Shown here: one piece after another, positions 2,748-60,165 of the stretch
Position numbering within the stretch: position 1 is the stretch's first letter
Layout of the letters: each line of letters starts with the position of its first letter
Source of the DNA: Anaeroplasma bactoclasticum
Lineage (GTDB): Bacteria; Bacillota_I; Bacilli_A; Acholeplasmatales; Anaeroplasmataceae
DNA: 64,000 nt
NCBI RefSeq assembly: GCF_003550015.1
Contig: NZ_QXEV01000001.1
Coordinates: forward strand, 124,001-188,000
Reading direction: 5' to 3'
Program-made: the position numbers and the translations under genes
The notes under the pieces: generated by a model
Database searches by the model: none
What the model was told of the DNA's origin: nothing
The model's input: only the letters and a program-made list of their open reading frames with translations

Positions 2748-5700
2748 ATGCAACAAGATTACCCAAATAAGCAAGGATTATATAATCCTGCTTATGAACA
2801 TGATTCCTGTGGTATTGGTGCAATTGCTCAAATTAATGGTATAAAAAGTCATAAAACAATTAAGGATGCCCTAGATATTTTAATTCATCTAGAGCATAGA
2901 GGGGGTACAGGTGCAGAGGATAACTCTGGTGATGGTGCTGGTATCTTATTTCAAATTCCTCATAAGTTTTTTGATAGTGAAATTTTAGGATTTGATTTAC
3001 CTAAAGAATTTGATTATGCAGTAGGACAATTATTCCTATCCCAAAATGAGGATTTAAGAAATAAAGAAATTGCTTTAATTGATGATGGACTTAAAAGCGA
3101 AGGATTAGAAATCCTAGGCTATAGAAAGGTACCTGTAGATGTAACAGATATTGGAAAAACTGCCTTAAAGGCTATGCCTTATATTGCTCAGGTTTTTGTA
3201 AAAAGACCTGAGGATATTGAGGTTGGCTTACCATTTGAAAGAAAGCTTTATGTTGCAAGAAAAAGAATTGAAACTTTAGCAATTAAAGAAAAATCAAGAT
3301 TATATTTTTGTTCTTTTTCTTCAAGAACTATTGTTTATAAGGGAATGCTTGTATCTACCCAAGTAAGAAATTTCTTCTTGGATTTATTAGATACTAAAGT
3401 AGAAAGTGCGATTGCACTTGTACATTCTAGATTCTCAACAAATACCTTCCCTTCTTGGGATAGAGCTCACCCAAATCGTTTCTTATGTCACAATGGTGAA
3501 ATTAACACTATTCGTGGTAATGTAAATATGGTTCGAGCTAGAGAGGGATTATTAAAATCCGAGGTATTTAAAGATGATTTATCTAAGGTTTTACCAATCA
3601 TTCCAAAGGAATCTTCCGATTCCGCAATGTTTGATAATTTCTTAGAATTTATGTATTTATCTGGTAGAACTCTAGAAGAAACTATAATGATGATGATTCC
3701 GGAACCATGGGATCATAATAAGGATATGGACCCAAGCCTAAGGGCATTTTACGAATTCCATTCGACCTTCCAAGAGCCTTGGGACGGTCCAGCATCCTTA
3801 ATATTTTCCGATGGTATTAAAGTTGGTGCGTCCTTAGACCGTAATGGCTTAAGACCATCAAGATATTATATTACAAAGGATAATTATTTAATATTATTCT
3901 CTGAAACAGGATCTTTAGCTATTGATGAGGCTTCTATTAAAGAAAAAAGAAGACTAGAACCAGGTAAAATCTTATTAGTAGATACAAGTAAGGGTATGGT
4001 TATATCTAATGATGATGTAAAGAAGTATTATTCATCTATTCATCCATATCAGGAATGGAATAAGAATATCATTCGTCTAGAGGATTTACCAAAGGAAGCT
4101 AAAGAAAAAAGAAAGTATGATATTAATTTCTTAGAACAAATGGTTGGATATACCTATGATGAACTAATGGATGGAATCCTACCATTAGCTGAAAAGGGTG
4201 TAGAAAAGGTTGTATCCATGGGAAATGATATGCCTTTAGCTGTACTATTAAAGAATGAATTTAATTTATTCCAATTCTTTAAGCAAAGATTTGCTCAAGT
4301 AACAAACCCACCTATTGATTCTATCAGGGAAGAAAATGTTATGGCAACATTCAATTATTTGGGTTGTGAGGGTAACTTATTAAATCCAAATAGTAAAAAT
4401 AGTGAACGAGTAAGAATTGATTATCCAATATTATCTAGTGAAGAATTCTATAAAATTAAGAATTTGTATTCTAAAGGAATAAAAACAGAAATTGTTTCTA
4501 TTTGTTATGATTACGAAAGAGAAACAATGGAAGAGGCATTAGAAAGAATTTTTAATGAATGTGATATTAAAATTGATTCTGGTGCATCTATTATTATTCT
4601 TTCTGATAGAAATCAAAATGGAATTCAAATTCCATCTTTACTTGTAGCAAGTGGAGTGCATCAGCATTTAACAAAAACATCAAGAAGAACACATGTTTCT
4701 TTAGTGTTAGAAGCTGCAGAGCCAAGAGATATTCATCATTATGCATGCTTAATTGGCTTTGGTGTAAATGCGATTTATCCTTATTTAGTATATGAAACTA
4801 TTGAATATTATTTAAATAGAGGATATTTAAAGATTTCTTTAGAAGAAGCATTAGCTAATTATAAGAATGGTGTAATGCATTCTATTACTAAAATTATCGC
4901 TAAAATGGGTATATCTACAATTCAATCCTATAATGGCTCTCAGATTTTTGAGTGTCTAGGATTAAATGATGATATTATCGAAAAGTATTTTACAAATACT
5001 CCATCCTCTATTGGTGGTATTGGTATTAAAGAAATTGAAGAAAACGCAATAAAGTTATATAAAAAGGCATTAAGCCATAAGGATGATACTCTAGATTCCT
5101 TAGGCTTACATGGCTATAGAAAAAAACAAATAGATCATATTTATGATCCGCTTACAATTATGCATTTACAAAGTGCATGTAGAAGTGGAGATTATAAAGA
5201 ATATAAGGAATTTACTAAGTTAATTGATTCTAAGGTTATCAATATTAGAAATATCCTAAAGCTTAATTATAGAAATTCAATTTCTATTGATGAGGTTGAA
5301 GGTGTAGATAGTATTGTTAAAAGATTTAAAACCGGCGCAATGTCTTATGGCTCTATTTCAAAGGAAGCCCATGAATGTATGGCTATTGCGATGAACCGTC
5401 TTCATGCTAAATCCAATACTGGTGAAGGTGGAGAGGAAAGAGAAAGATATCAAAAATTAGAAAATGGAGATTCCAAATGCTCTGCAATTAAGCAGGTTGC
5501 CAGTGGTAGATTTGGTGTTACAATTGAGTATTTGACAAACGCAATTGAAATTCAAATTAAGATGGCACAGGGTGCAAAGCCTGGTGAGGGTGGACAATTA
5601 CCTGGTGCAAAGGTATTCCCTTGGATTGCTAAGGCAAGACATTCAACTCCTGGTGTATCCTTAATATCACCACCACCACATCATGATATTTATTCTATTG

Positions 5701-11219: not shown

Positions 11220-14200
11220 ATGTATAAAGCGAAGAGTTTTATTCTTAAAGTGATTATTGGTTTCATGAGCATTGCTATAATTGCAATTTGTGCAATTGCC
11301 TTTATCCCTGGAAGTTTAGAGAGTAAAGAGAAGACGACAGACGGGGATAGTGAATTATCTTCAACAACATCGGTAGATACATCAGTTTTTGCAGATAATG
11401 TACAAGATGGTCAAATATTGCAGTGCTTCTGTTGGAGCTATAATGAAATCATGGAGTATTTACCAAAAATTGCAGATCAAGGTTTTACAGCGATTCAAAC
11501 ATCACCTGTACAGGTATGTAAGGAAGCTACACTTGGCCAAACTGCGAAGGGTTCTTGGTGGGCATATTACCAACCAGCTGCCTTCACCATTGATGATACT
11601 GGTGATAATGCACTTGGTACGCCAGAAGAATTTAAAGCTATGTGTCAAATGGCACATTCCTATGGCGTTAAGGTATTAGTTGACGTTGTTGCAAACCACT
11701 TAGGTAACCAATGGGTTTCTGATTCCTTATGCGAGCGTGCATATTATTATGAATGGGAAATCGCAGGTATGTCTACAAGTGTAGAAGATGGTGGATATAT
11801 TCCATATACTGGTGAAGTATGGGCATATGGAGGAGGAACAACTACTCCTGGTGCTGCAAATGCTTCAACAACACCTGTAATTGATACATATTATTATAAA
11901 GATACATTAAAGTTCCATCCTTATTTAATTCAAGATAATGATGAGCCTGGTAATGTTACACAGGGTAATATTGGTATGATGGATCTTGATACATCAGATC
12001 CAGTAGTACAAGATGCTGTTGCGGATTATCTAGAGGAATTAATCAGTTATGGTGTTGATGGATTTAGATTTGATGCAGCTAAGCATATTGAAACACAGTG
12101 GGATTCTATATCGAGTGATTTTTGGCCTTATGTTATGGATAGAGCTGAAACAGCTGCTAGAAATGCAGGTAGAGAATTATATGCATACGGAGAGATTTTA
12201 AATAGACCAGGTATTGGTAGAAGCCTATCTTGGTATACAAATAATAATGTGGCTATTACAGATTCTGGAATGGGTCATAATATTGTTGAAAATGGTGGTT
12301 CTGGTCACTCTAGCTTTAATGGTGCCGATGGCAATAATTATGCTGATTACAAGGAGCATATGGTAACATGGGCTGAATCCCATGATAACTATATGGGTAC
12401 TCAGGATACTCATAATAAGAGTGTAGAGGTTATTAATAAATCTTATGCTATTTTAGCTTCTAGAAAGGATTTTGCAACATTATATTGTGCAAGATTTGAA
12501 GATTATGAAACTTCCGTTTTAGGTAGTGTTGCTTGCTTAAATGGTTGGTCATACCCTGAAATTGGGGCAGTAAATAAATTCCATAATTTCTATGCTAAGG
12601 CAGATGCTGATGAGGCTTGCTATGATGCAAATGGATATACAATTACTGAAAGATTTGTTGATTCTTATTCTCAGAATAATGGTATTGTAATTGTTGGTAA
12701 TGCTGGTGGATGCCAGGTACCTGCTTACCATTTGGCAGATGGTACATATACCGATTGTGTAACTGGTAATACATTTATCGTATCTAATGGCACAATTAAT
12801 GGTAATATTGGAGAATCTGGTGTTGCAGTAGTTTATAATCATTTTGAAAATAAGACACCATCCATTACTGCATCCTTAGCTTCTGGATATATTACTGAGG
12901 ATTATTTATCTGTAACTTATACATTTAAAAATGCAGTATCTTCAAGTGTAGTAGTTGGTACTGATAAGGTTCAATCAACTGCTGAATCTGCATATGTTTA
13001 TGTAAATGGAATTCAAGAAGGTCAAACAATTACTGTAGTTGTTACAGTAACTAGTGTTGATGGTGTGGATTGTACAAAGACTTATACCTATACAAGATTT
13101 AATCCAGTTGGCACGGTGACATTATATTTCACAAATACAATGAATTGGTCTACAGTTAATGCTTATGCATGGAAGGGTGGAAATAAGAATGCTAGCTGGC
13201 CTGGATTAGCATTAACAGATACTGTATTAGATAAGAATGGAAATACTTGTTACGTATATGAATTTGATATGGATTCCTATGATCATATCATCTTTAATGA
13301 TGGTAACAATCAAACAGAAGATATTTTAGTTGCTGCATCCAAGCAGTATACTCTATCTGAAAAGGGTATTAATTGCTATAAGGTTCTTGAGTCTGATTTT
13401 GAACCATATGATGGTGGAGAAATTGATCCAATAGACAATTCAAACGTAATTACAGTAGATTTTAAGAATGATTATAATTGGGATAGTGTTTATGTATATA
13501 CATGGCGTAATGGCTCAAATAAGGCAAACGCTAATTGGCCTGGTGTAAAGGTTGAAACTCTAAATAAAGATAAAGATGGCTTTATGGCTTGTTCTGTAGA
13601 TGTTGATTTAGATCAATTTGACATGATTATCTTTAATAATGGTGGAAATGCTAAGACAAATGATTTAATGCTAGATTCTGAAACCTTAGGCTTTACTTTT
13701 GATGGTTTATTCTATGATTTTGAACCATATGATGGTGGAGATGTAATTGATCCTATTGATGATTCAACTGTAATCACAGTATATTTTAAGAATGATTATA
13801 ATTGGGATAATGTTTATGCATATGTATGGAATAATACAACTGGAACTAATAATTCATGGCCAGGTACATTAGCTACATATGTTGGTAAGGATAAAGATGG
13901 TAATTTTGCATATTCCTTTGATGTAGATTATCAGGTATATGATCATATCATCTTTAATAATAACAATGGTGGCCAAACTTCAGATTTAGAATTAACAAGT
14001 GAAACTAAAGGATTTACTTTTGATGGTTCAGCATATACATATTCTCCATATGTAGATATAAATACAAGTGAAATTACTGTATATTTTAAGAATACAGATA
14101 ATTGGGATAGTGTGTATGTATATTTATGGAATAATGCATCAGGAAATAAGAATGCTGAATGGCCAGGAGTAAAATTAGAGTCTATTGGCACAGATGGTGG

Positions 14201-33421: not shown

Positions 33422-36280
33422 ATGAAATTCTTTAATAAAGACAAAAAAGTGGAAGAGAATAAAATAAAAACCTATAACGAAGATGGCTATGATAGTGAAG
33501 GCTATGATATAAGTGGATATGATATCTTTGGTTATGATAGGCTAGGCTGGAATAAGGAAGGCTATAACAAAGAAGGCTATGACCATGATGGCTATAACAA
33601 AAATGGTTATAACAGGGATGGCTTTGATAGAGATGGCTTAGATATGTATGGAATGAATATCGATGGTTATGATAAGCTAGGCTATGATAGATTTGGTTAT
33701 AACAAGGAAGGCTATAATAAAAATGGCTATGATAAATATGGCTATAATAAAGAAGGATATAATTCACAAGGCTATGACAAGGAAGGCTTTAATAAGGAAG
33801 GTCTTAATAAAGATGGATTAAGACGCGAGGATATAAAAATTAAAGCTTATGATGAATTTGGTTATGACCAGGATGGGTATGATAAATATGGCTATAACAA
33901 AGAAGGCTATAATAAGCGTGGCTATAATAAGGAAGGCTATGATAAAGAAGGTTATAACTCTTTAGGCTTTAATAAGGATAATATTCACAAGAATGGTACA
34001 TTGTATGATGAGGATGGCTATAATAGAGAAGGCTTTAATAAAAATGGCTATAACCGCTTGGGCTATGATAAGAATGGAATCCATGAATCTTTAGCCCCAA
34101 GGATTAAAGAATTTAAGCTAGAAGCGAAAAAAAGCTTAGGTAAATTAATTTACCATGAAAAATATGGTGAAGGGAAAATTACTTCTATTACACCTAAATC
34201 CGATTTTAAAAGTGGTTATGCAAAGGTTGAATTTGCTCACGGAATAAAAAAAGAATTCATTTGGCCAGATGCTATTGGTAATTTCTTAACCTTAGATAGT
34301 CTTATTAAAAAGGATGATTCTTTATTAACTTATAGCGAAAAAGAATTTAAAAAAGAAAAAAAATACCTATCTAAGGTATTAGATTATTGTAATTCAAATC
34401 AAGAAAAAGAATATAAAGCTCCAATATTAGTTAGAGATAATTCTTGGAATAATCCATATGATGATGATTATGATTTCCAAGATACAGAAAACCATTTTTA
34501 TAATATTTCTATGAAGGATTATTGGAATAAGGTATCCTTATCTCCATTCTTTGGAAGCTTTATCGATAAGAATGGTTTAAAATATATTGGAAAAGAAGAA
34601 ATACCAGGGCTTGTATATGACTGGAGAAGTAAGGATGCATCTACATATTATGTATATAGATCCTTATTAAATTCTGATTTAGAAATATCTTTAGTTAGAA
34701 ATCATACCATTGAATATAAAAGATATAAATCCTTCATTGATTTATTTAATAAAGAATATCCAAATAGTATTACTTTAGCTACAGAGGATGAGTATTTATC
34801 TAGAATCTTAATAGATTCAAGATTAACAAAGGAAACTCATGATATTATCAATTCTATTCAAAATAAGCAATTTGAAATTATTTCTAATTTAAATAATGAA
34901 AATATCTTAGTAAATGGCTGTGCTGGTTCTGGTAAAACTATGGTTTTATTCCATAAGATTGCATATATGGCTTTTAATCTAGAAAAGTTTAATCCTAGCG
35001 AAGTATTAGTAATATCTTCTAATATTTTACTTAAAAGAGAAGGAGATTTACTTGCTAAAGAATTAAAACTAGATAAGATTAGAAATTATAGCCTAGAGGA
35101 ATTTTATGATTCTTGTATAGATTCTATAATAAAACCTAAAAATATCACTATAGATTATTCCTTTAAAGAAAACAATGAGAAGGCTATAAATCTTTATAAT
35201 GATAAAGCCTTAAAGCCTATTATTTTGGCATTTAAAGAGTTTTTAAATGATTGGGGTAATATTACTCAAGAATACCAAAAATCTTTAAAAAGAAAAGAAG
35301 AAATATTTAAGGATTCTAATTATTTAGATGAGGTATTAAATCTATTTAAAGATATTCCTTTCATGAATTTATTAACGGAATTTAATACCTTAGAAATCAA
35401 AAGAATAAAGGATTTATTTAAGGATTCTATAGAATATAATGATAATGGTTCTATAAAAAAGAAATATAAGAATTCTATAGAATTTAAGGAATTATTAGAG
35501 AAAGATTCTACTATATTAAATAAAGCCTATGCATATATGAATTATAAGAATGAAATTAAGAATTATAATTTATATAAAGAAGGAAAATTAAATGAATTTA
35601 TAGTTCCTTTAGCTTCTTATTTCTTAAATAAAGAAATTAAATATAGCTATAATCCACTAGATTATAAATTCTTAATTCTTTATTTAATTAAAGATTATAT
35701 TAAGGATTATCCATTCACAAATAGAATATTTATTGATGAATATCAAAATTATTCTTTAGTTGAATTTAATTTATTAAAAGAATTATATCCATATGCCACA
35801 TTTAATTTCTTTGGTGATATCAAACAAAGAATAGATGCATCTGGTATTAAATCTAGCTTAGAATTACCATTTATTTGTAAATCTTATGAGCTTAATGTAA
35901 ATTATAGATCTGCAAAAGAGATATGCTGGTATTTAAATAAGAATTATGATACCAATATGGTACCTATTGGTATAAGTGGTATTGCAGAAGAAAAGGACTT
36001 ATCTGAAAAATTATATATTGATGAAGAAAATGATAGATGTGCTTTAATTGTTAAAAGCTTAGAATATACAAAGGAATTAAAGGCTAAGGATAAATGTAAA
36101 TTCATCAATATATTAAATAAAGATAAGATGGATAAGAAATTTATTAACATTTTATTAGTAGATGATGTAAAAGGTCTTGAATTTGAAAAGGTTTATGTTT
36201 ATCCTAAAGGTATGAGCAAAGAAGAGGAATACTTAGCTTCCTCTCGTGCTTTAAGGCATTTAGTAATGTTAAAGGGGTGA
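33422..36280 (+). CDS. UvrD/Rep-type SF1 helicase with an N-terminal array of GYN/GYD pentapeptide repeats
   Basis: 952 residues. After a 20-residue basic start come about 37 repeats of five residues with consensus (D/E/N)G(Y/F)(D/N)(K/R), residues 21-135 and 146-222 with one ten-residue break and one seven-residue insertion. Residues about 240-290 (LGKLIYHEKYGEGKI... AKVEFAHGIKKEFIWPDAI) resemble the Tudor-like DNA/RNA-polymerase-binding tail of UvrD/PcrA, here moved in front of the motor. The motor has Walker A NGCAGSGKT (Lys505), Walker B IFIDEYQN (Asp772-Glu773), motif III FFGDIKQRID, NYRSAKEI, and KGLEFEKVYVYP with SSRALRHL near the end. All core ATPase motifs are present. What the repeat array binds is unknown. 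It is followed directly by the gene at 36285. Confidence 0.85.
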   Translation: MKFFNKDKKVEENKIKTYNEDGYDSEGYDISGYDIFGYDRLGWNKEGYNKEGYDHDGYNKNGYNRDGFDRDGLDMYGMNIDGYDKLGYDRFGYNKEGYNKNGYDKYGYNKEGYNSQGYDKEGFNKEGLNKDGLRREDIKIKAYDEFGYDQDGYDKYGYNKEGYNKRGYNKEGYDKEGYNSLGFNKDNIHKNGTLYDEDGYNREGFNKNGYNRLGYDKNGIHESLAPRIKEFKLEAKKSLGKLIYHEKYGEGKITSITPKSDFKSGYAKVEFAHGIKKEFIWPDAIGNFLTLDSLIKKDDSLLTYSEKEFKKEKKYLSKVLDYCNSNQEKEYKAPILVRDNSWNNPYDDDYDFQDTENHFYNISMKDYWNKVSLSPFFGSFIDKNGLKYIGKEEIPGLVYDWRSKDASTYYVYRSLLNSDLEISLVRNHTIEYKRYKSFIDLFNKEYPNSITLATEDEYLSRILIDSRLTKETHDIINSIQNKQFEIISNLNNENILVNGCAGSGKTMVLFHKIAYMAFNLEKFNPSEVLVISSNILLKREGDLLAKELKLDKIRNYSLEEFYDSCIDSIIKPKNITIDYSFKENNEKAINLYNDKALKPIILAFKEFLNDWGNITQEYQKSLKRKEEIFKDSNYLDEVLNLFKDIPFMNLLTEFNTLEIKRIKDLFKDSIEYNDNGSIKKKYKNSIEFKELLEKDSTILNKAYAYMNYKNEIKNYNLYKEGKLNEFIVPLASYFLNKEIKYSYNPLDYKFLILYLIKDYIKDYPFTNRIFIDEYQNYSLVEFNLLKELYPYATFNFFGDIKQRIDASGIKSSLELPFICKSYELNVNYRSAKEICWYLNKNYDTNMVPIGISGIAEEKDLSEKLYIDEENDRCALIVKSLEYTKELKAKDKCKFINILNKDKMDKKFINILLVDDVKGLEFEKVYVYPKGMSKEEEYLASSRALRHLVMLKG
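33482..34087 (+). repeat. 15-bp-period coding repeat array (GYN/GYD)
   Basis: About 37 units of 15 bases encoding GY(N/D)xx-type pentapeptides, in blocks 33482-33826 and 33857-34087. Many units share GGCTATAA. The array is in frame throughout, so it is a protein repeat, not a CRISPR or satellite. Confidence 0.9.
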
Positions 36281-37184: not shown

Positions 37185-38624
37185 TTACTTATATTTGTCT
37201 ATTATATAGCTTGCAGAATGAGCTAAGTCTGGTAGCATTGTAGAATCATTAATGCCTACATTCGCAAGCTCTTTAAAGATACCAGCTTTATTTTTAATAA
37301 TGATACGAGGTAAACCTGTTAATGTTCTTGAAGAGAAAATCGGATCATATAAATCTCTTTCATTGTTTAAATAATTACTATCTAATCCAAAAAGAATAAA
37401 TCCACCAGACTGCATACGAACTCTATCATTAATGAATCCAACCTTAACAATTCTAGGTATCATTAGGTTTGAAAAATAGAAGCTATTATAATTATTTTTT
37501 TCAGCAGATACTAAACTAATTAATCGTGCGCAGGATTCTATTTCTGATTCTTTTATTGAGCTAAAAGGGAATCGTTGATTTAAAGTTTTATAAGTTTTAT
37601 TAATTCCCATTCTATATTCTAAAGGACTTATATTGGGTATTATTTCCTTGTTGAATATATCTTCAATATTTTCATTATTAATCTTCTTTAGCACATTCAT
37701 AATTGCATTCTTATCTTCATTTCTTATTTTGGCTAGATTAGCTAAATAAGATACACTAACCATATCGCTATCGTATATACAATTTTTGTGTGAGAAATAA
37801 ACTATTATTTCTCCATACTCTTTTTGTTGATTATCCCCAGTATATATTTTATTTGTTGCCATATATAAGGCTACTAAAGGATTAGTAGTTATATCTAATA
37901 GTCTTGTTTTTAATTCAAAATGCTGCATATCGGTTAATTGTTCAATTGCAGAGTGTCCATTAAAATGATTTGGATGTCTTTGAATCATTTCCTTAACCAT
38001 TTTATCTTCATTTTCACCATTTTTAATTCTAAAAACTGCAGCTTGTTCAGGATATATTGGTGTACTTACCCCACGAAAGAAGACGTCTGTAGGATTATTC
38101 TCATAAGACTCGATGATACTTAAATATTTGTCTTTTCTTTTGTCCCCAGACTCATTTATAATAGTTTTAATTTCAGTGATTGCCTTTTGATATTTTGAAT
38201 CTCCAGATAGGATCTTTTTTCTATACTCTATAGATTCCAAATTCTTAAGTGTATCGCTGAATTTATCTTGTATTAATTTGTATATTTCGGATGTTAAAGT
38301 AAGATCTACATACATTAATTTTATAAAGGTATCTAAGTATCTATAAAAATTTGTCACATTAATATATTGTGATAAGTTTGATACTTCGAATGTTAAACTT
38401 TGTACAGGACCATCATCTGTTATATTTATATATTCAGCAGATTTCAAGAATTCATCTCGTTTTACCTCTTTAACGAATATTTTTTCATTATTAAATCTTA
38501 CAGAACCATCCTTAAGAAAGGATAATTCCCTGTATGAATAATGTTTATTTTCAAATTCTGGTTTTAGCTCAAAATCTGTTATTTCAGCTTCTTTGTTGCT
38601 GCTATTAGTGTAATAAAAACCCAT
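37185..38624 (-). CDS. FRG-domain protein
   Basis: 479 residues. The first 170 residues are unassigned. An FRG domain (PF08867) begins at VFFRGVST (Arg near residue 184) and continues through HPNHF, LTDMQHFELKTRLLDITTNPLVALYMA and a C-terminal ESEIESCARL segment. FRG proteins are of unknown biochemistry and are scattered in mobile and defence loci. The start at 38624 follows GGGGGAA on the minus strand. It is monocistronic and opposite to its neighbours. Confidence 0.8.
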   Translation of the reverse strand: MGFYYTNSSNKEAEITDFELKPEFENKHYSYRELSFLKDGSVRFNNEKIFVKEVKRDEFLKSAEYINITDDGPVQSLTFEVSNLSQYINVTNFYRYLDTFIKLMYVDLTLTSEIYKLIQDKFSDTLKNLESIEYRKKILSGDSKYQKAITEIKTIINESGDKRKDKYLSIIESYENNPTDVFFRGVSTPIYPEQAAVFRIKNGENEDKMVKEMIQRHPNHFNGHSAIEQLTDMQHFELKTRLLDITTNPLVALYMATNKIYTGDNQQKEYGEIIVYFSHKNCIYDSDMVSVSYLANLAKIRNEDKNAIMNVLKKINNENIEDIFNKEIIPNISPLEYRMGINKTYKTLNQRFPFSSIKESEIESCARLISLVSAEKNNYNSFYFSNLMIPRIVKVGFINDRVRMQSGGFILFGLDSNYLNNERDLYDPIFSSRTLTGLPRIIIKNKAGIFKELANVGINDSTMLPDLAHSASYIIDKYK

Positions 38625-40729: not shown

Positions 40730-42235
40730 ATGAAATATGGTTATGTTAGAGAATTGAATGCAATATTACTAGATAAGTATAATGAGAATGAATATGGATT
40801 GACTTTCGTTGATTATTATATGTTTCAAATAACATCTTTTGGGTTATCTCTATTTAGAGAACTTAACCTAGATAATCAACGCATTAGCTTATCACAGGCA
40901 TTTGATGTTAGATGTATAATTGAAGCACTTGCAGTTTTAAGAATGTATGACAAAGAAGAAATGCCAGAGTATGCTTCTGATCTATTAAGAAGTAATCAAT
41001 TCATATGTGAATATAGAACCTATAAAAAATATCCAAAACTACATGGTATTACCTTTGATTTAGAAGAAATGGAAAGGAATTATAATGATGCGGTTTCCTA
41101 TTATCGTGAGAAAATAGGTACGGATATTTCATCGAAAGATTTTAAAAAAATAATAAAAGGAAAATTGCCACATTTAATGGAGGATTATTCGTACTATTCC
41201 TTAATAAGTATGTATTGTCCTGAATTCGTAGATACATATCAACACTTGAGCGTTATATTACATCCATCTGAAATTGTTACCAATTTCTGCTATTTGGAAA
41301 TAGAATCTGTTATTGATATATTAGGCAAAATATTTGATGCAATTACTGAATTAATTGAAAAATACTATCCCAACATTATCCCTTCTTATGAGCATAACTG
41401 GGAATATGAATGTGAATATTGCTTTGGTGATGGAACTAACTATAGTCCTTTAGTTATTGCAGGTAAACCTCAATTAATGCTTATAAAAGAACTTACATTA
41501 AAAATACATGAAGATTTAAAACTGCCTGATGGCGAAGTGTGCTTACCTGAAGTTTTCTTTGGAAGAGTATATGAAGAACTTGAAAGTATTTTATATGATA
41601 AAGCTTTTGGCTTTTCAGAAATAATAAAATCAAAAGTAAAACCAATCTTTGAATTGTTTGCCACATTCCATTATTCTTTAAAACAAGGTGAAGGAAGTCT
41701 AATTTTAGATTTAATGCAATATTATACAATAATAAATTATTTAAAAGTTAAGAATGAACCTTTTGAGGACGAATTAAACAAATCATATGAAATTTACAAA
41801 AAACAATTCAATAGTGAAATCACTTTGGATAAATATACTGACTTAATAACTAAAAATTTTATGCCTGTATATTTGGGCTATGAAGACATTAAAGGATTTG
41901 TTTTTGAAATGATAGATGATTTAGTTATAGATATACTTCATCAAAAGGATTCGTGTAAAATGCTTTATGAGGAAAGTCAATGTCTTTCACATGGTAATGG
42001 TTATGTTCTTTCATCAAATGTTGGAGCATTCCTTGACTCTGATTCGGCATGTAAGTCAATTGATGTATTGTTATTGGCATTATTTAAAGAATATGCTGAA
42101 ATAGTTAAAAAAAATAATCTGCCTAAGAAGTTGAAATATGACATAAAATCATTGTTAAAAAAATATGAGATTATTCATACTACTATATTATATGAAGAAC
42201 TGACATTGAAACCTCTCATAAAAAAATTAGGATAG
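40730..42235 (+). CDS. Hypothetical helical protein, 501 residues
   Basis: Not recognised with certainty. It looks all-helical and soluble. The segments FDVRCIIEALAVLRMY and YQHLSVILHPSEI loosely recall DUF5677-type proteins, but this is weak. A cysteine pair in ECEYCFGDG near residue 225 may bind metal. The in-frame codons TTG 40715, ATG 40718 and ATG 40727 precede ATG 40730, which is favoured because GGGTGA is five bases upstream. It lies in the accessory stretch before the exonuclease module and ends with a strong terminator. Confidence 0.65.
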   Translation: MKYGYVRELNAILLDKYNENEYGLTFVDYYMFQITSFGLSLFRELNLDNQRISLSQAFDVRCIIEALAVLRMYDKEEMPEYASDLLRSNQFICEYRTYKKYPKLHGITFDLEEMERNYNDAVSYYREKIGTDISSKDFKKIIKGKLPHLMEDYSYYSLISMYCPEFVDTYQHLSVILHPSEIVTNFCYLEIESVIDILGKIFDAITELIEKYYPNIIPSYEHNWEYECEYCFGDGTNYSPLVIAGKPQLMLIKELTLKIHEDLKLPDGEVCLPEVFFGRVYEELESILYDKAFGFSEIIKSKVKPIFELFATFHYSLKQGEGSLILDLMQYYTIINYLKVKNEPFEDELNKSYEIYKKQFNSEITLDKYTDLITKNFMPVYLGYEDIKGFVFEMIDDLVIDILHQKDSCKMLYEESQCLSHGNGYVLSSNVGAFLDSDSACKSIDVLLLALFKEYAEIVKKNNLPKKLKYDIKSLLKKYEIIHTTILYEELTLKPLIKKLG

Positions 42236-42265
42236 CATCATGTGTAAAAGCATGATGCTTTTTTT
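42234..42265 (+). terminator. Terminator before the exonuclease gene
   Basis: AGCATCATG / CATGATGCT stem with an eight-base loop, followed by a run of T that abuts the operator at 42265. Confidence 0.88.
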
Positions 42266-42279
42266 GAACCACTGGTTCA
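42265..42279. promoter_or_regulatory. 15-bp operator site 1 (TGAAC-N5-GTTCA)
   Basis: TGAACCACTGGTTCA is a perfect inverted repeat with a one-base centre. It ends exactly 23 bases before the TATAAT at 42303. The same site type with the same spacing occurs at 44041. The likely ligand is the XRE protein at 43797. Confidence 0.65.
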
Positions 42280-42302
42280 TATTTTTTTTGTTTATCTAAA
42301 TA

Positions 42303-42308
42303 TATAAT
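42303..42308 (+). promoter_or_regulatory. -10 box of the exonuclease promoter
   Basis: TATAAT without a TG extension. The -35 position (42280-42285, TATTTT) is poor, which fits a promoter needing an activator bound just upstream. Confidence 0.5.
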
Positions 42309-42337
42309 TAAGATGAAATTACGAGGAGGATAAAAGT

Positions 42338-43522
42338 ATGAATTTATTGTTTTTCGATTTAGAATATGCAACATCTCGTGGTGGTAAACCTAAAATATGT
42401 GAATTTGGTTATGTAGTTACTGATGAAGGTTTTAATGTCGTTAAAAGAGGTAATTTTATTATTAATCCTAATATTGAAAAAAGTGAATGGGATTGGAGAG
42501 TCGTAAGAAAGATACTTACAAGAAAAGTATATGAATATGAGAAACAAGCTGATTTTTATTTTTTTTATAAAGAGATTAATAATCTTATAACTAATGCTGA
42601 TATAGTATTAGGTCATTCTTTAAATGGTGATGCTAAAGCATTAAATTTTGAATGCAAGAGATATGGACTGGATAGTTTAGATTTTACATTTTATGATGTT
42701 AAAAATTTCTATAAAGAATATAATAATACAACAAAGGATACTTCGGTAACTAATATTTTAAAATCCTTTAACTTAGTGGGAGAAGAAAAAGAACATGATG
42801 CTGAATCAGATGCATTTAATACAATGCTTGAGTTGAAGGCTATGCTAGAATCATTAAATTTATCAATCACTGAATTGATAGAACTTTGTCCTTCAGCAAA
42901 AGATAAAAATGAAAATTATGTTGTTGAATCAATTGAAGCATCTAGGCTAAAGAAGAGAGCAAAATTTGAATCAATATTAAAAGATAATACATTTGTGAAA
43001 CATAGTTCAAAGGGAAGGTTATTATTACAGTTTTTAGATAATGTTCAACCTATGGATGTTTGTCAACAAACATTAGCAGGATTAAGCTTTTCAATATCAA
43101 TTAATTATGAAGAGAACCATTATAGACAGTTACTTAATATAATTCAAATTTTATCTAATTTAGGTGCAAAGTATGTTTTAAAAGCTTCCACAACAGATGT
43201 CTTTGTGACTTATGATACATTTAATGAGGATGGAAGCATAAAGCCATGTTCTAAAGCTAGATATGTAAAAGAAGCAATAGATGCAGGGAAGAGTATCAAA
43301 GTAATATCTTTTGACGAGTTCTTAGAAATGATCGGTCTTTCTGAAAGTCAATTGGATGATCTCCCAATGGTATCATTCGATTGTTTATATCGAGAAAATG
43401 CCATTATAAAAGATAGAAAGATTACAAACTTATTAAATAAAAAAGAAGATAATAAAAAAAGTATTAACCATTTTAGCACTACTATAGGAGATTTATTTGG
43501 CGATATTCTAGTTGGATGCTAA
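42338..43522 (+). CDS. DEDDh exonuclease with C-terminal BRCT domain
   Basis: 394 residues. The N-terminal about 180 residues form an RNase T/DnaQ-like 3'-5' exonuclease: motif I LFFDLEYAT (Asp and Glu), motif II GHSLNGDAKAL, motif III HDAESDAF with the His-Asp pair, i.e. DEDDh type. Residues about 235-340 (GLSFSISINYEENHYRQLL, LGAKYVLKASTTDVFVTYD, AGKSIKVISFDEFLEMIGL) look like a BRCT domain. It probably processes DNA or RNA ends, with BRCT as the partner-binding part. ATG 42338 follows GAGGAGGA. It heads a likely operon with the 54-residue ORF and the XRE gene. It uses TCA/TCT for serine more than flanking genes, by eye. Confidence 0.82.
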   Translation: MNLLFFDLEYATSRGGKPKICEFGYVVTDEGFNVVKRGNFIINPNIEKSEWDWRVVRKILTRKVYEYEKQADFYFFYKEINNLITNADIVLGHSLNGDAKALNFECKRYGLDSLDFTFYDVKNFYKEYNNTTKDTSVTNILKSFNLVGEEKEHDAESDAFNTMLELKAMLESLNLSITELIELCPSAKDKNENYVVESIEASRLKKRAKFESILKDNTFVKHSSKGRLLLQFLDNVQPMDVCQQTLAGLSFSISINYEENHYRQLLNIIQILSNLGAKYVLKASTTDVFVTYDTFNEDGSIKPCSKARYVKEAIDAGKSIKVISFDEFLEMIGLSESQLDDLPMVSFDCLYRENAIIKDRKITNLLNKKEDNKKSINHFSTTIGDLFGDILVGC

Positions 43523-43557
43523 AGGATAATTTTATAAAGTAAATAGGAGTATTGATT

Positions 43558-43722
43558 ATGAAATATGTATATTCAGAAGAATATGTGTTGATGAGATTAA
43601 AAAAATTGAAAGAAAAAAGTCATGATGAGATAAATACAACATCATTTGATTTAAACTATTTGGTTGAATTATGTAACAAGTATAACTTGTCGTTGGATTT
43701 CTTTGTTATTGTGGAAAAATAA
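43558..43722 (+). CDS. Small protein, 54 residues
   Basis: A short ORF (MKYVYSEEYVLMRLKKLKEK...) with TAGGAG eight bases before its ATG. It is a charged helical peptide with no known family. It lies 35 bases after the exonuclease stop and before the XRE gene with no terminator between, so it is probably co-transcribed and may be an antitoxin-like, adaptor or regulatory peptide. The coding call rests on the ribosome site and placement only. Confidence 0.55.
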   Translation: MKYVYSEEYVLMRLKKLKEKSHDEINTTSFDLNYLVELCNKYNLSLDFFVIVEK

Positions 43723-43796
43723 TTTTCATGATAAAATAAATTTGTTAGTCATAAGTAGTGGGTCGGTCTGTGCAATGTCATAAGGAGGACATGAAC

Positions 43797-44027
43797 ATGA
43801 CTAATGAAAACACAAAAACTCTATCTGTTGAAAATATCGGTGGTAATCTACTTAGATTGCGTAAAGAACATAAGTTATCTAGAGAGAAATTCGCAGAGCT
43901 TATTGACGTAAGTTCTAGAATTGTCTATGACTATGAAGATGGTTTTAAAACCCCTTCACTAGATACTCTTGTCCGTATTGCCAACCTATATGGAGTAACT
44001 TTGGATGACATCTTACGTTCTGCGTAA
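43797..44027 (+). CDS. XRE-family transcription regulator
   Basis: 76 residues, almost entirely a Cro/C1-type helix-turn-helix: NLLRLRKEHKLSREKFAELI with recognition region SSRIVYDYEDGFKTPSLDTLVRIANLYGVTLDDIL. The start ATG 43797 is eight bases after AAGGAGG; ATG 43791 is too close and the GTG at 43758 has no site. The protein has no sensory domain, like controller proteins of restriction-modification loci. Its operon promoter and the next gene's promoter carry identical TGAAC-N5-GTTCA sites, so autoregulation and control of the helicase are inferred. Confidence 0.85.
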   Translation: MTNENTKTLSVENIGGNLLRLRKEHKLSREKFAELIDVSSRIVYDYEDGFKTPSLDTLVRIANLYGVTLDDILRSA

Positions 44028-44040
44028 GATGTTATTTTTT
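44008..44040 (+). terminator. Terminator after the XRE gene
   Basis: ACATCTTACG / CGTAAGATGT 10-bp stem overlapping the 3' coding end, with TATTTTTTT following and abutting operator site 2. Confidence 0.85.
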
Positions 44041-44055
44041 TGAACTAAAGGTTCA
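44041..44055. promoter_or_regulatory. 15-bp operator site 2 (TGAAC-N5-GTTCA)
   Basis: TGAACTAAAGGTTCA has the same outer half-sites as site 1 with a less symmetrical centre. It ends exactly 23 bases before TATAAT at 44079-44084. Confidence 0.65.
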
Positions 44056-44078
44056 TTTTAATTGAATAAAATGTCTAT

Positions 44079-44084
44079 TATAAT
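44079..44084 (+). promoter_or_regulatory. -10 box of the helicase promoter
   Basis: TATAAT without TG extension; -35 position 44056-44061 is TTTTAA. The geometry is the same as at 42303. The leader to ATG 44181 is about 90 bases. Confidence 0.5.
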
Positions 44085-58263: not shown

Positions 58264-60165
58264 ATGAGTGAAGCAAATAACTCCCGTGAAAAAGTAAAAA
58301 GTGCAATGAAGGGTAATGGCGCCCCAATGAGAGGGCCTGGTGCTAGATTTACAAGAGCAAAAGAAAAGCCAAAGAATACAAAGGTAACAATTAAAAGATT
58401 ATTTGGCTATTTAATGCATTCTAAGGTATTAGTTATAGCATTACTAATTGTTGCTCTTATATATACTGCTGCAGGAATATATTCTAGTGTATTAATTAAA
58501 GATGTTGCAGGAGCATTAGGTACATATAATAGTGAGGCAAAAGCCTGGGTGAGGGAGCCTAACGAGGCATCGTTTTATTATTCCTTATGGTCATTATTAA
58601 TTACTTATGTTGTATATTGTGTATTCTTATATTTATCATCCTTATTTGGAGCATTTTTAGCTGCTAAAACAGTTAGAAAAATGAGAAATGATTTATTTGA
58701 AAAGATCGTATATTTACCTATATCTTATCTAGATTCTCATTTCCATGGAGATTTATTATCTAGAATGACAAATGATGTAGATAATATTTCTAATGTAATA
58801 TCTTCATCCATTACTTCATTAATTAGTGGTGTATTAACTATTTTGGGATGCTTAGGTGTAATGCTTTGGCATTCTCCACTATTAACTTTAATTTCCTTTG
58901 TTGTATTAATTCTTACATTAATCTACACAAAGCTAATGAGTAAATATGCAAGACCTCTATTTGTAAAACAGCAAGGAGTACTTGGAGCATTAAATACTCA
59001 AACGGAAGAAATGGTTACAGGCTATAAAACGGTAATAACAAATAATCATGAGGCTATAGCTATAGAAGAATTCTCTAAATATAGTGATGATTTTACGCAT
59101 ACAGCGATTAAAGCTCAGGTATTAGGCTCATCTATGGGACCTATCATGAACTTTATTGGAAATATAGGATATTTCTTGGTTTGTATTTGTGGAGCATTAT
59201 TTATTGTTCATGGTATTGGTGGAACAATCTATGGTGAGCCATTAACTATCGCAATAGTTATTATGTTTTTAACTACTACAAAGCAGTTCACAAGACCTAT
59301 TAATGAGGTTGCAATGCTTTATTCATCCATTGTTACAGCACTTGCAGGTGCAGAGAGAGTATTTAGTGTAATGGATGAGGAAGTAGAAAACTTCAATGGT
59401 ACACTAGAATTTAAATATGATGATGTTAAAGGTGAGATTGATTTTTTACATATCGATTTTGGATATGAAGAAAACGAGCTTGTATTAAAGGATTTCTCTA
59501 TGCATGTAGATAGTGGCCACAAGGTTGCACTTGTAGGTGCAACAGGTAGTGGTAAAACCACTATCGTAAATCTACTATTAAGATATTATGATCCAAATAG
59601 TGGTAAAATCCTAATCGATGGGAAAGACACCTTAGATATTTCTAAAAAGGATTTAAGAGATGCAATTTCTATTGTTTTACAAGATCCTGTATTATTTGGT
59701 GATACCATTGAGAATAATGTAAAATATGGCAAAAAGGATGCAACTGATGAAGAGGTTGATTTTGCACTAACATTCGCGAATTGTGATTCTTTCATCAACA
59801 ATTTACCAGATGGAAAGAAAACAATCTTAACCGAAGGTGCAACCAACATAAGCCAAGGTCAGCGGCAGCTACTTACTATAGCTAGAGCAGTTTTAGCTGA
59901 TCCTAGAATTTTAATTTTAGATGAAGCAACCTCATCTGTAGATACAAGAACAGAAAAGAAGGTTCAGGATGCCATGGTTAAGCTTATGGCAAATAGAACA
60001 TCCATTATCATTGCCCATAGATTATCTACAATCCAAGATGCCAATAGAATTATAGTACTTGATAAGGGACATGTAGTAGAAGAAGGTACACATAAAGAGC
60101 TTTTAGCTATAAATGGTGTATATAGAAAGCTATATGAAACTCAGTTTAAGGGACTAGATACATAA
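58264..60165 (+). CDS. ABC exporter half-transporter, catalytically canonical subunit
   Basis: 633 residues. An extra N-terminal cytoplasmic tail (about 45 residues, GAPMRGPGARFTRAKEK) is typical of this branch. The membrane domain is followed by an ATPase with Walker A GATGSGKTT, signature ISQGQRQLL (deviating from LSGGQ) and Walker B LILDEATSSVD with Glu554 intact. Since each signature faces the partner's Walker A, the odd ISQGQ and the partner's Asp504 fall in the same composite site. It starts one base after the first subunit. Last clear gene of the operon. Confidence 0.9.
   Translation: MSEANNSREKVKSAMKGNGAPMRGPGARFTRAKEKPKNTKVTIKRLFGYLMHSKVLVIALLIVALIYTAAGIYSSVLIKDVAGALGTYNSEAKAWVREPNEASFYYSLWSLLITYVVYCVFLYLSSLFGAFLAAKTVRKMRNDLFEKIVYLPISYLDSHFHGDLLSRMTNDVDNISNVISSSITSLISGVLTILGCLGVMLWHSPLLTLISFVVLILTLIYTKLMSKYARPLFVKQQGVLGALNTQTEEMVTGYKTVITNNHEAIAIEEFSKYSDDFTHTAIKAQVLGSSMGPIMNFIGNIGYFLVCICGALFIVHGIGGTIYGEPLTIAIVIMFLTTTKQFTRPINEVAMLYSSIVTALAGAERVFSVMDEEVENFNGTLEFKYDDVKGEIDFLHIDFGYEENELVLKDFSMHVDSGHKVALVGATGSGKTTIVNLLLRYYDPNSGKILIDGKDTLDISKKDLRDAISIVLQDPVLFGDTIENNVKYGKKDATDEEVDFALTFANCDSFINNLPDGKKTILTEGATNISQGQRQLLTIARAVLADPRILILDEATSSVDTRTEKKVQDAMVKLMANRTSIIIAHRLSTIQDANRIIVLDKGHVVEEGTHKELLAINGVYRKLYETQFKGLDT

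Follow-up and report, generated by a model that had tools for sequence, protein, structure and literature searches.

A small XRE regulator and its operators, set at a fixed distance from the -10 element, as a putative on-switch for defence-type operons in Anaeroplasma bactoclasticum

Introduction

How bacteria silence and turn on costly immune operons is the broader matter on which the locus described here bears. In the window, i.e. the whole 64-kb stretch of Anaeroplasma bactoclasticum DNA that was analysed, the genes of an exonuclease and of a very long helicase flank that of a 76-residue XRE protein, here XRE-B, and an inverted repeat of identical geometry precedes each of the two transcription units. 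The question that arises is whether the small regulator binds both repeats and whether, in doing so, it turns the two units on or off. The first-pass annotation of this DNA favoured activator control with feedback, as by the controller (C) proteins of restriction-modification (R-M) systems, and gave repression as the alternative.

Results

The perfect 15-mer TGAAC-N5-GTTCA occurs only twice in the window (Table 1), and this is not chance, since 0.05 copies are expected (mean of 100 dinucleotide shuffles); for the operator followed after 23 bases by TAnnnT, the mean of such shuffles is 0.00. The sequence confirmed what had been read at the two sites: the 15-mers themselves, a TATAAT beginning exactly 23 bases past each of them, a T-run directly before, and promoters that lack both a usable -35 (the best candidates, at spacers of 16-18, match 1/6 and 3/6 positions) and a TG extension. 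The T-run of the first site belongs to the terminator of the upstream gene; that of the second, which reaches 44040, comes after a stem-loop recognised by eye at 44008-44032 (ACATCTTACG-TTCTG-CGTAAGATGT, then TATTTTTT). The assignment of the XRE gene to the first unit was right in part: the first promoter does lie upstream of the gene, which has, in addition, an extended -10 promoter of its own, without operator.

Table 1. Regulatory elements and genes of the XRE-B locus, in window positions
Feature	Position	Strand	Basis
Intrinsic terminator of upstream gene	42234..42264	+	10-pair stem 42234-42259 and T-run; directly before operator 1
Operator 1, TGAAC-N5-GTTCA, TGAACCACTGGTTCA	42265..42279	+	motif match; conserved beside homologues
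-10 element TATAAT, exonuclease promoter	42303..42308	+	gap 23, without -35, without TG
DEDDh exonuclease, 394 aa	42338..43522	+	RNase_T 2.7e-10
53-aa ORF, probable HTH-A remnant	43561..43722	+	59% identical to the C5-island HTH-A over 22 residues; gene order alike
Extended -10 promoter of XRE gene, TGATAAAAT	43729..43737	+	TGN-10, equivalent place in 8/8 loci
Leader RNA helix, 5' strand (predicted transcript start)	43741..43752	+	comparative pairing
Leader RNA helix, 3' strand, contains XRE start codon	43797..43808	+	comparative pairing
XRE-B regulator, 76 aa	43797..44027	+	HTH_3 7.8e-13; paralogue and homologues elsewhere
Terminator-like stem-loop and T-run	44008..44040	+	overlaps XRE-B 3' end; directly before operator 2
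Operator 2, TGAAC-N5-GTTCA, TGAACTAAAGGTTCA	44041..44055	+	motif match
-10 element TATAAT, helicase promoter	44079..44084	+	gap 23, without -35, without TG
SF1 (Upf1/DNA2-like) helicase, 1542 aa	44181..48809	+	AAA_11/AAA_12; behind second promoter

The helicase match to the IGHMBP2 family (TIGR00376) falls below the cut-off; the model of its C-terminus is unusable (pLDDT 36.5), and we claim no nuclease domain there. Near the cassette, on the minus strand, 37185-38624 encodes an FRG-domain protein assigned by PADLOC to the candidate defence family PDC-S15 (3.7e-56). Also, 33422-36280 encodes a protein of 952 aa in which a long series of GYNKEGYD-type repeats is joined to a region resembling an NTPase/helicase. 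Family resemblance, taken with the island context, suggests that the effector genes may have an anti-phage role.

The claim had been tied beforehand to conservation of the motif beside homologues, and it came through that search. Operators of 5-N5-5 form stand beside XRE homologues in genomes G632 (locus L021), G558 (L029), G561 (L030), G647 (L053), G702 (L057) and G761 (L059), and beside a paralogue on contig C5 of the own genome (L006). Where the contig extends far enough, both the cassette and the operon that follows it have such an operator in front, with half-sites TGAAC, TGAAG or TGAAA, an N5 spacer and no -35. In L021, from an Erysipelotrichaceae MAG with a 55% identical XRE-B homologue, TGAAC-N5-GTTCA stands upstream of the first HTH gene, with a gap of 22 to the -10, and again upstream of the operon that comes next, with a gap of 23. 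Of two further operators in this locus, that at 4424 lacks a clear -10, while TGAACCGCTGGTGCA, at 14035, has gap 23. G558 carries TGAAG-N5-CTTCA twice and G561 carries TGAAACGACACTTCA and TGAAACGTCACTTCA, all four with gap 23, the second -10 of G561 (TATACC) being weak. TGAAACGACAGTTCA in G647 has gap 23, and TGAACCGCTGGTACA occurs twice each in G702, G761 and G912 with gaps of 23-24. A more distant XRE-B (32% identity; L032, G268) has no recognisable operator.

Under a strict rule for the -10, gap 23 is found at 12 of the 17 sites, other offsets at 0-3 each; 4/17 sites have gap 22 or 24. With the two sites of the window and those of the near-identical pair G702/G761 left out, gap 23 still holds for 8/11 (binomial p about 2e-10). 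The best -35 match at the operators is 2.72/6 versus 2.57 in shuffled sequence, and a TG extension is present at 1/18 operator promoters versus 8/8 of the promoters of XRE-B itself. A site adjoining the -35 position, a fixed -10 distance and a -35 match at shuffled level are the layout of class II activators. Judged by this comparison, the recurrence of operator, spacing and cassette is not a local coincidence. We also considered the operator as a feature of the exonuclease, which was ruled out: six loci with exonuclease homologues and without XRE-B contain no operator, so that, by the same comparison, the operator belongs to the regulator.

With the -10 placed at -12 to -7, the window operators would cover -50 to -36 and have their centre at -43, next to where a -35 hexamer would stand, and transcripts are predicted to start near 42315 and 44091. 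XRE-B bound there could also be a repressor which blocks RNA polymerase at both promoters until infection de-represses them. Small XRE proteins beside mobile genes are mostly repressors, many XRE autorepressors and the RptR/BrxR-type defence regulators offer models (RptR, itself small, represses a defence island; PMC12255303), and several of the -10 elements come close to consensus and could perhaps function where the DNA upstream is A/T-rich. However, the site lies upstream of the -35 position and never over the -10 or the start, the spacing of 23 holds among divergent sequences although repression needs no fixed gap, and -35 and TG are missing at the operator promoters while TG is present at the operator-free one. 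We regard repression as unlikely, and activation by XRE-B as the preferred reading.

The whole-genome scan proposed by the first-pass annotation was made over the own genome (2.2 Mb, 58 contigs). It gave 9 perfect operators versus 2 for a reversed-pattern control, and 5 sites versus 1 for the operator followed by N23 and TAnnnT, all five of them within two islands. The second is a defence-like island on contig C5, with four more perfect copies (58521, 73674, 73751 and 77227, all on the minus strand) whose -10 elements stand at gap 23 (TATACT, TAAAAT, TATAAT) or 22 (TAGAAT). It encodes a TIR protein with zinc ribbon, VWA, PP2C phosphatase, protein kinase and SF1 helicase proteins, a McrB-like AAA protein with a DUF2357 protein, and an ADP-ribosylglycohydrolase-like gene, as well as the XRE-B paralogue, which is 55% identical and the only other copy in this genome. 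Since the paralogue has an identical operator sequence, the window and C5 islands probably cross-talk. Perfect 15-mers at C2:702, C13:44811 and C29:16324 were set down to chance, the -10 being missing at the right gap. Within the C5 island, the operator at 58521 precedes a unit (L005:2872-4522) which includes the ADP-ribosylglycohydrolase-like protein and is possibly a further unit of the regulon, and two complete operator promoters (C5 73751, then 73674) lie in tandem, 77 bases apart, at L006:7675-7766.

In every complete cassette another small HTH gene (HTH-A) precedes XRE-B. In the window its place is taken by a 53-codon ORF which is probably an HTH-A remnant, with the DNA-binding helices deleted and the C-terminal part kept. 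HTH-A sequences are 21-36% identical and their recognition helices are unlike, while the operators and the recognition regions of XRE-B are conserved. Furthermore, the operator letters covary with that region of XRE-B, DYEDGFK going with TGAAC and WENG-x-S with TGAAG/TGAAA. XRE-B is the likely operator binder, because the window HTH-A is deleted, HTH-A recognition regions vary and the operators persist, and because of this covariation. That HTH-A, or an HTH-A/XRE-B heterodimer, binds the operator instead would agree with its position immediately ahead of XRE-B in nearly all cassettes, and the window sites could be bound in trans by the C5 HTH-A; yet the window copy lacks its HTH and it is XRE-B, not HTH-A, whose recognition region is conserved and covaries with the operators, so we give this possibility somewhat less credence than repression. 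That the dyads are RNA hairpins or parts of terminators is very improbable: the first dyad is a stem-loop in its own right, with a T-run after it (a terminator scan lists 42265-42279 with its T tail) and many dyads come after T-runs, but most other sites have no T-run behind them, the loop is a free N5, the half-site letters covary with the recognition region of the regulator, and a fixed -10 distance makes sense for DNA only.

A conserved 130-145-aa protein with a KCGHVG/KFGHVG motif is encoded near the cassette in five loci (L006:7187-7615 in the own genome, contig C5, where it follows the tandem promoters; L021:6235-6636; L032:10029-10427; L057; L059), and in several cassettes its gene is the first behind the operator. 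It has no Pfam, PADLOC or NCBIfam match, and its AlphaFold model (pLDDT 73.6) gave no significant fold match, the best being ribosomal LX/eL20-like (E 0.16). At L021:6205-15680 and L091:3473-13302 a conserved operon behind the cassette encodes the KCGHVG protein, an AAA ATPase (IetA-like), an SF1 helicase, two unknown proteins of ~450-500 aa and a radical SAM protein; that of L091 adjoins a serine recombinase.

Behind the extended -10 of XRE-B there is a leader of 57-75 nt in 8/8 loci. In the window, where this transcript is predicted to start near 43743, its predicted 5' end (GUUAGUCAU) pairs with the start-codon region (AUGACUAAU). In an alignment made independently of structure (8 sequences, of which two are almost alike), 88.5% of the cells of this 10-pair helix are paired, versus 22-56% in slid controls, with changes on both sides in 5/10 pairs; 1/500 shuffles reached covariation as high. 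The duplex between 5' end and start region has p<=0.026 in 7/8 loci, is weak in L030, and in several loci also pairs the Shine-Dalgarno sequence. A covariance model built from these leaders matches nothing else in the genomes searched, and the leaders contain no Rfam family. The unusual stability that we expected of the window leader alone failed to appear, its fold being no better than shuffles (z -0.34), so the case for a leader hairpin that may sequester the start codon rests on comparison between loci.

The family relatives searched have no XRE-B but, at best, generic XRE proteins of 33-42% identity, mostly parts of larger proteins; for this reason, cassette and operators were probably gained together, horizontally. 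Plasmid and phage searches with XRE-B returned generic XRE proteins only (<60% identity), and the viral contigs searched none. Many matches in the G632 family (E 1e-14 to 1e-17) were left out, most of them being ordinary XRE proteins of larger size, and those at L031 and L033 (G413, G495) are not cassette members.

Discussion

We consider it probable that the locus as a whole is best explained as a self-contained regulatory cassette which switches on defence-type operons. Read from the position of the sites, activation with feedback in the manner of C proteins is the best reading, and operators before both cassette and effector operon fit activation of the regulator's own gene and of an effector gene. 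The fixed spacing, the lack of -35 and TG at the operators and the TG at the operator-free promoter agree with class II activation combined with a weak starter promoter. In this sense, the operator-free promoter would yield a trickle of XRE-B mRNA with its start codon held in the hairpin. Once made, an XRE-B dimer would bind each operator near -43, adjoining the place of sigma region 4, and recruit RNA polymerase, in the way of lambda CI bound to its middle operator. The upstream unit would then be turned on, giving exonuclease and, by readthrough into XRE-B, positive feedback, together with the downstream helicase unit. HTH-A, which elsewhere is encoded between operator 1 and XRE-B, probably tunes XRE-B through protein contact; the window copy would have lost its DNA-binding helices and kept the likely dimerisation end. 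That the hairpin is released by a changed transcript start or by an infection signal is a guess.

A wider reading, which we put forward tentatively, is that of a mobile two-HTH cassette, combining leader RNA and fixed-distance activation, placed before unrelated defence operons, with separate islands of one genome that fire together through a common operator. It has the appearance of an on-switch for immunity genes that can be transferred, judging by its occurrence beside phage-defence-like operons in distant bacteria. The signature TGAAn-N5-nTTCA, 23 bases, TATAAT would make co-regulated defence operons findable by DNA pattern alone, and such a search would reach genes of unknown function such as that of the KCGHVG protein. 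Additionally, the leader hairpin may be the place where an infection signal enters. Our literature search, of partial coverage, found no description of this cassette.

Among known systems, the helicases of the window, C5 and L021 match the helicase part of the PADLOC model of Mokosh MkoA (2.9e-97, 4.3e-79 and 4.4e-74; profile positions 453-1076 of 1112 for the window protein). Mokosh proper has a full MkoA, of kinase and helicase, together with MkoB, or else MkoC. Unlike in Mokosh, the partner gene in the window is an exonuclease; Pfam finds no kinase domain in the window protein, and no MkoB-type neighbour was found. XRE-B resembles lambda CI, an XRE-fold protein that performs class II activation at PRM, a promoter that is poor without the dimer, as the operator promoters here would be. 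In both, the centre of the dimer site, putative here, lies about 42-43 bases upstream of the start and the site touches the -35 region; here, unlike in lambda, there is a single site, no repressor array and no peptidase-like C-terminal domain, and the sigma contact is putative. RptR (PMC12255303), CapK/CapS (PMC13373217), the BrxR WYL family (PMC9122601) and CapH are likewise small regulators beside, and common to, different defence systems, the match of XRE-B to CapH (7e-6) being that of a generic HTH. RptR and CapS are described as repressors with other folds or sites than XRE-B (PMC12255303; PMC13373217), and the conserved activator cassette proposed here stands against them among recent defence-island regulators.

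The closest likeness is to the C proteins of type II R-M systems (C.Csp231I, C.PvuII, C.BclI), which, as is proposed for XRE-B, are small single-domain XRE activators with inverted-repeat promoter operators and positive autoregulation. XRE-B is a small stand-alone protein of XRE fold, matches the PADLOC Control_protein model (1.6e-7) and has C.BclI among its solved relatives (1e-7), and the C.Csp231I operator, CTAAG-N5-CTTAG, has the same 5-N5-5 geometry (PMC4824078). However, the island genes scanned include no methyltransferase, and the cassette has no type II endonuclease. Nor is there a tandem of activating OL and repressing OR: the window and nearly all loci have a single site per promoter, and C5 73751 and 73674 are two complete promoters. 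Also unlike in C-protein systems, the cassette has a second HTH gene and a leader hairpin on the regulator mRNA, and its effectors are helicase, exonuclease, TIR, kinase or AAA operons. Because of the missing methyltransferase and OL/OR pair and the unrelated effector operons, the system resembles that of a C protein but is not one. In PvuII, a weak C-independent promoter starts the loop (PMC3695507), and the extended -10 promoter of the window could play this part for XRE-B.
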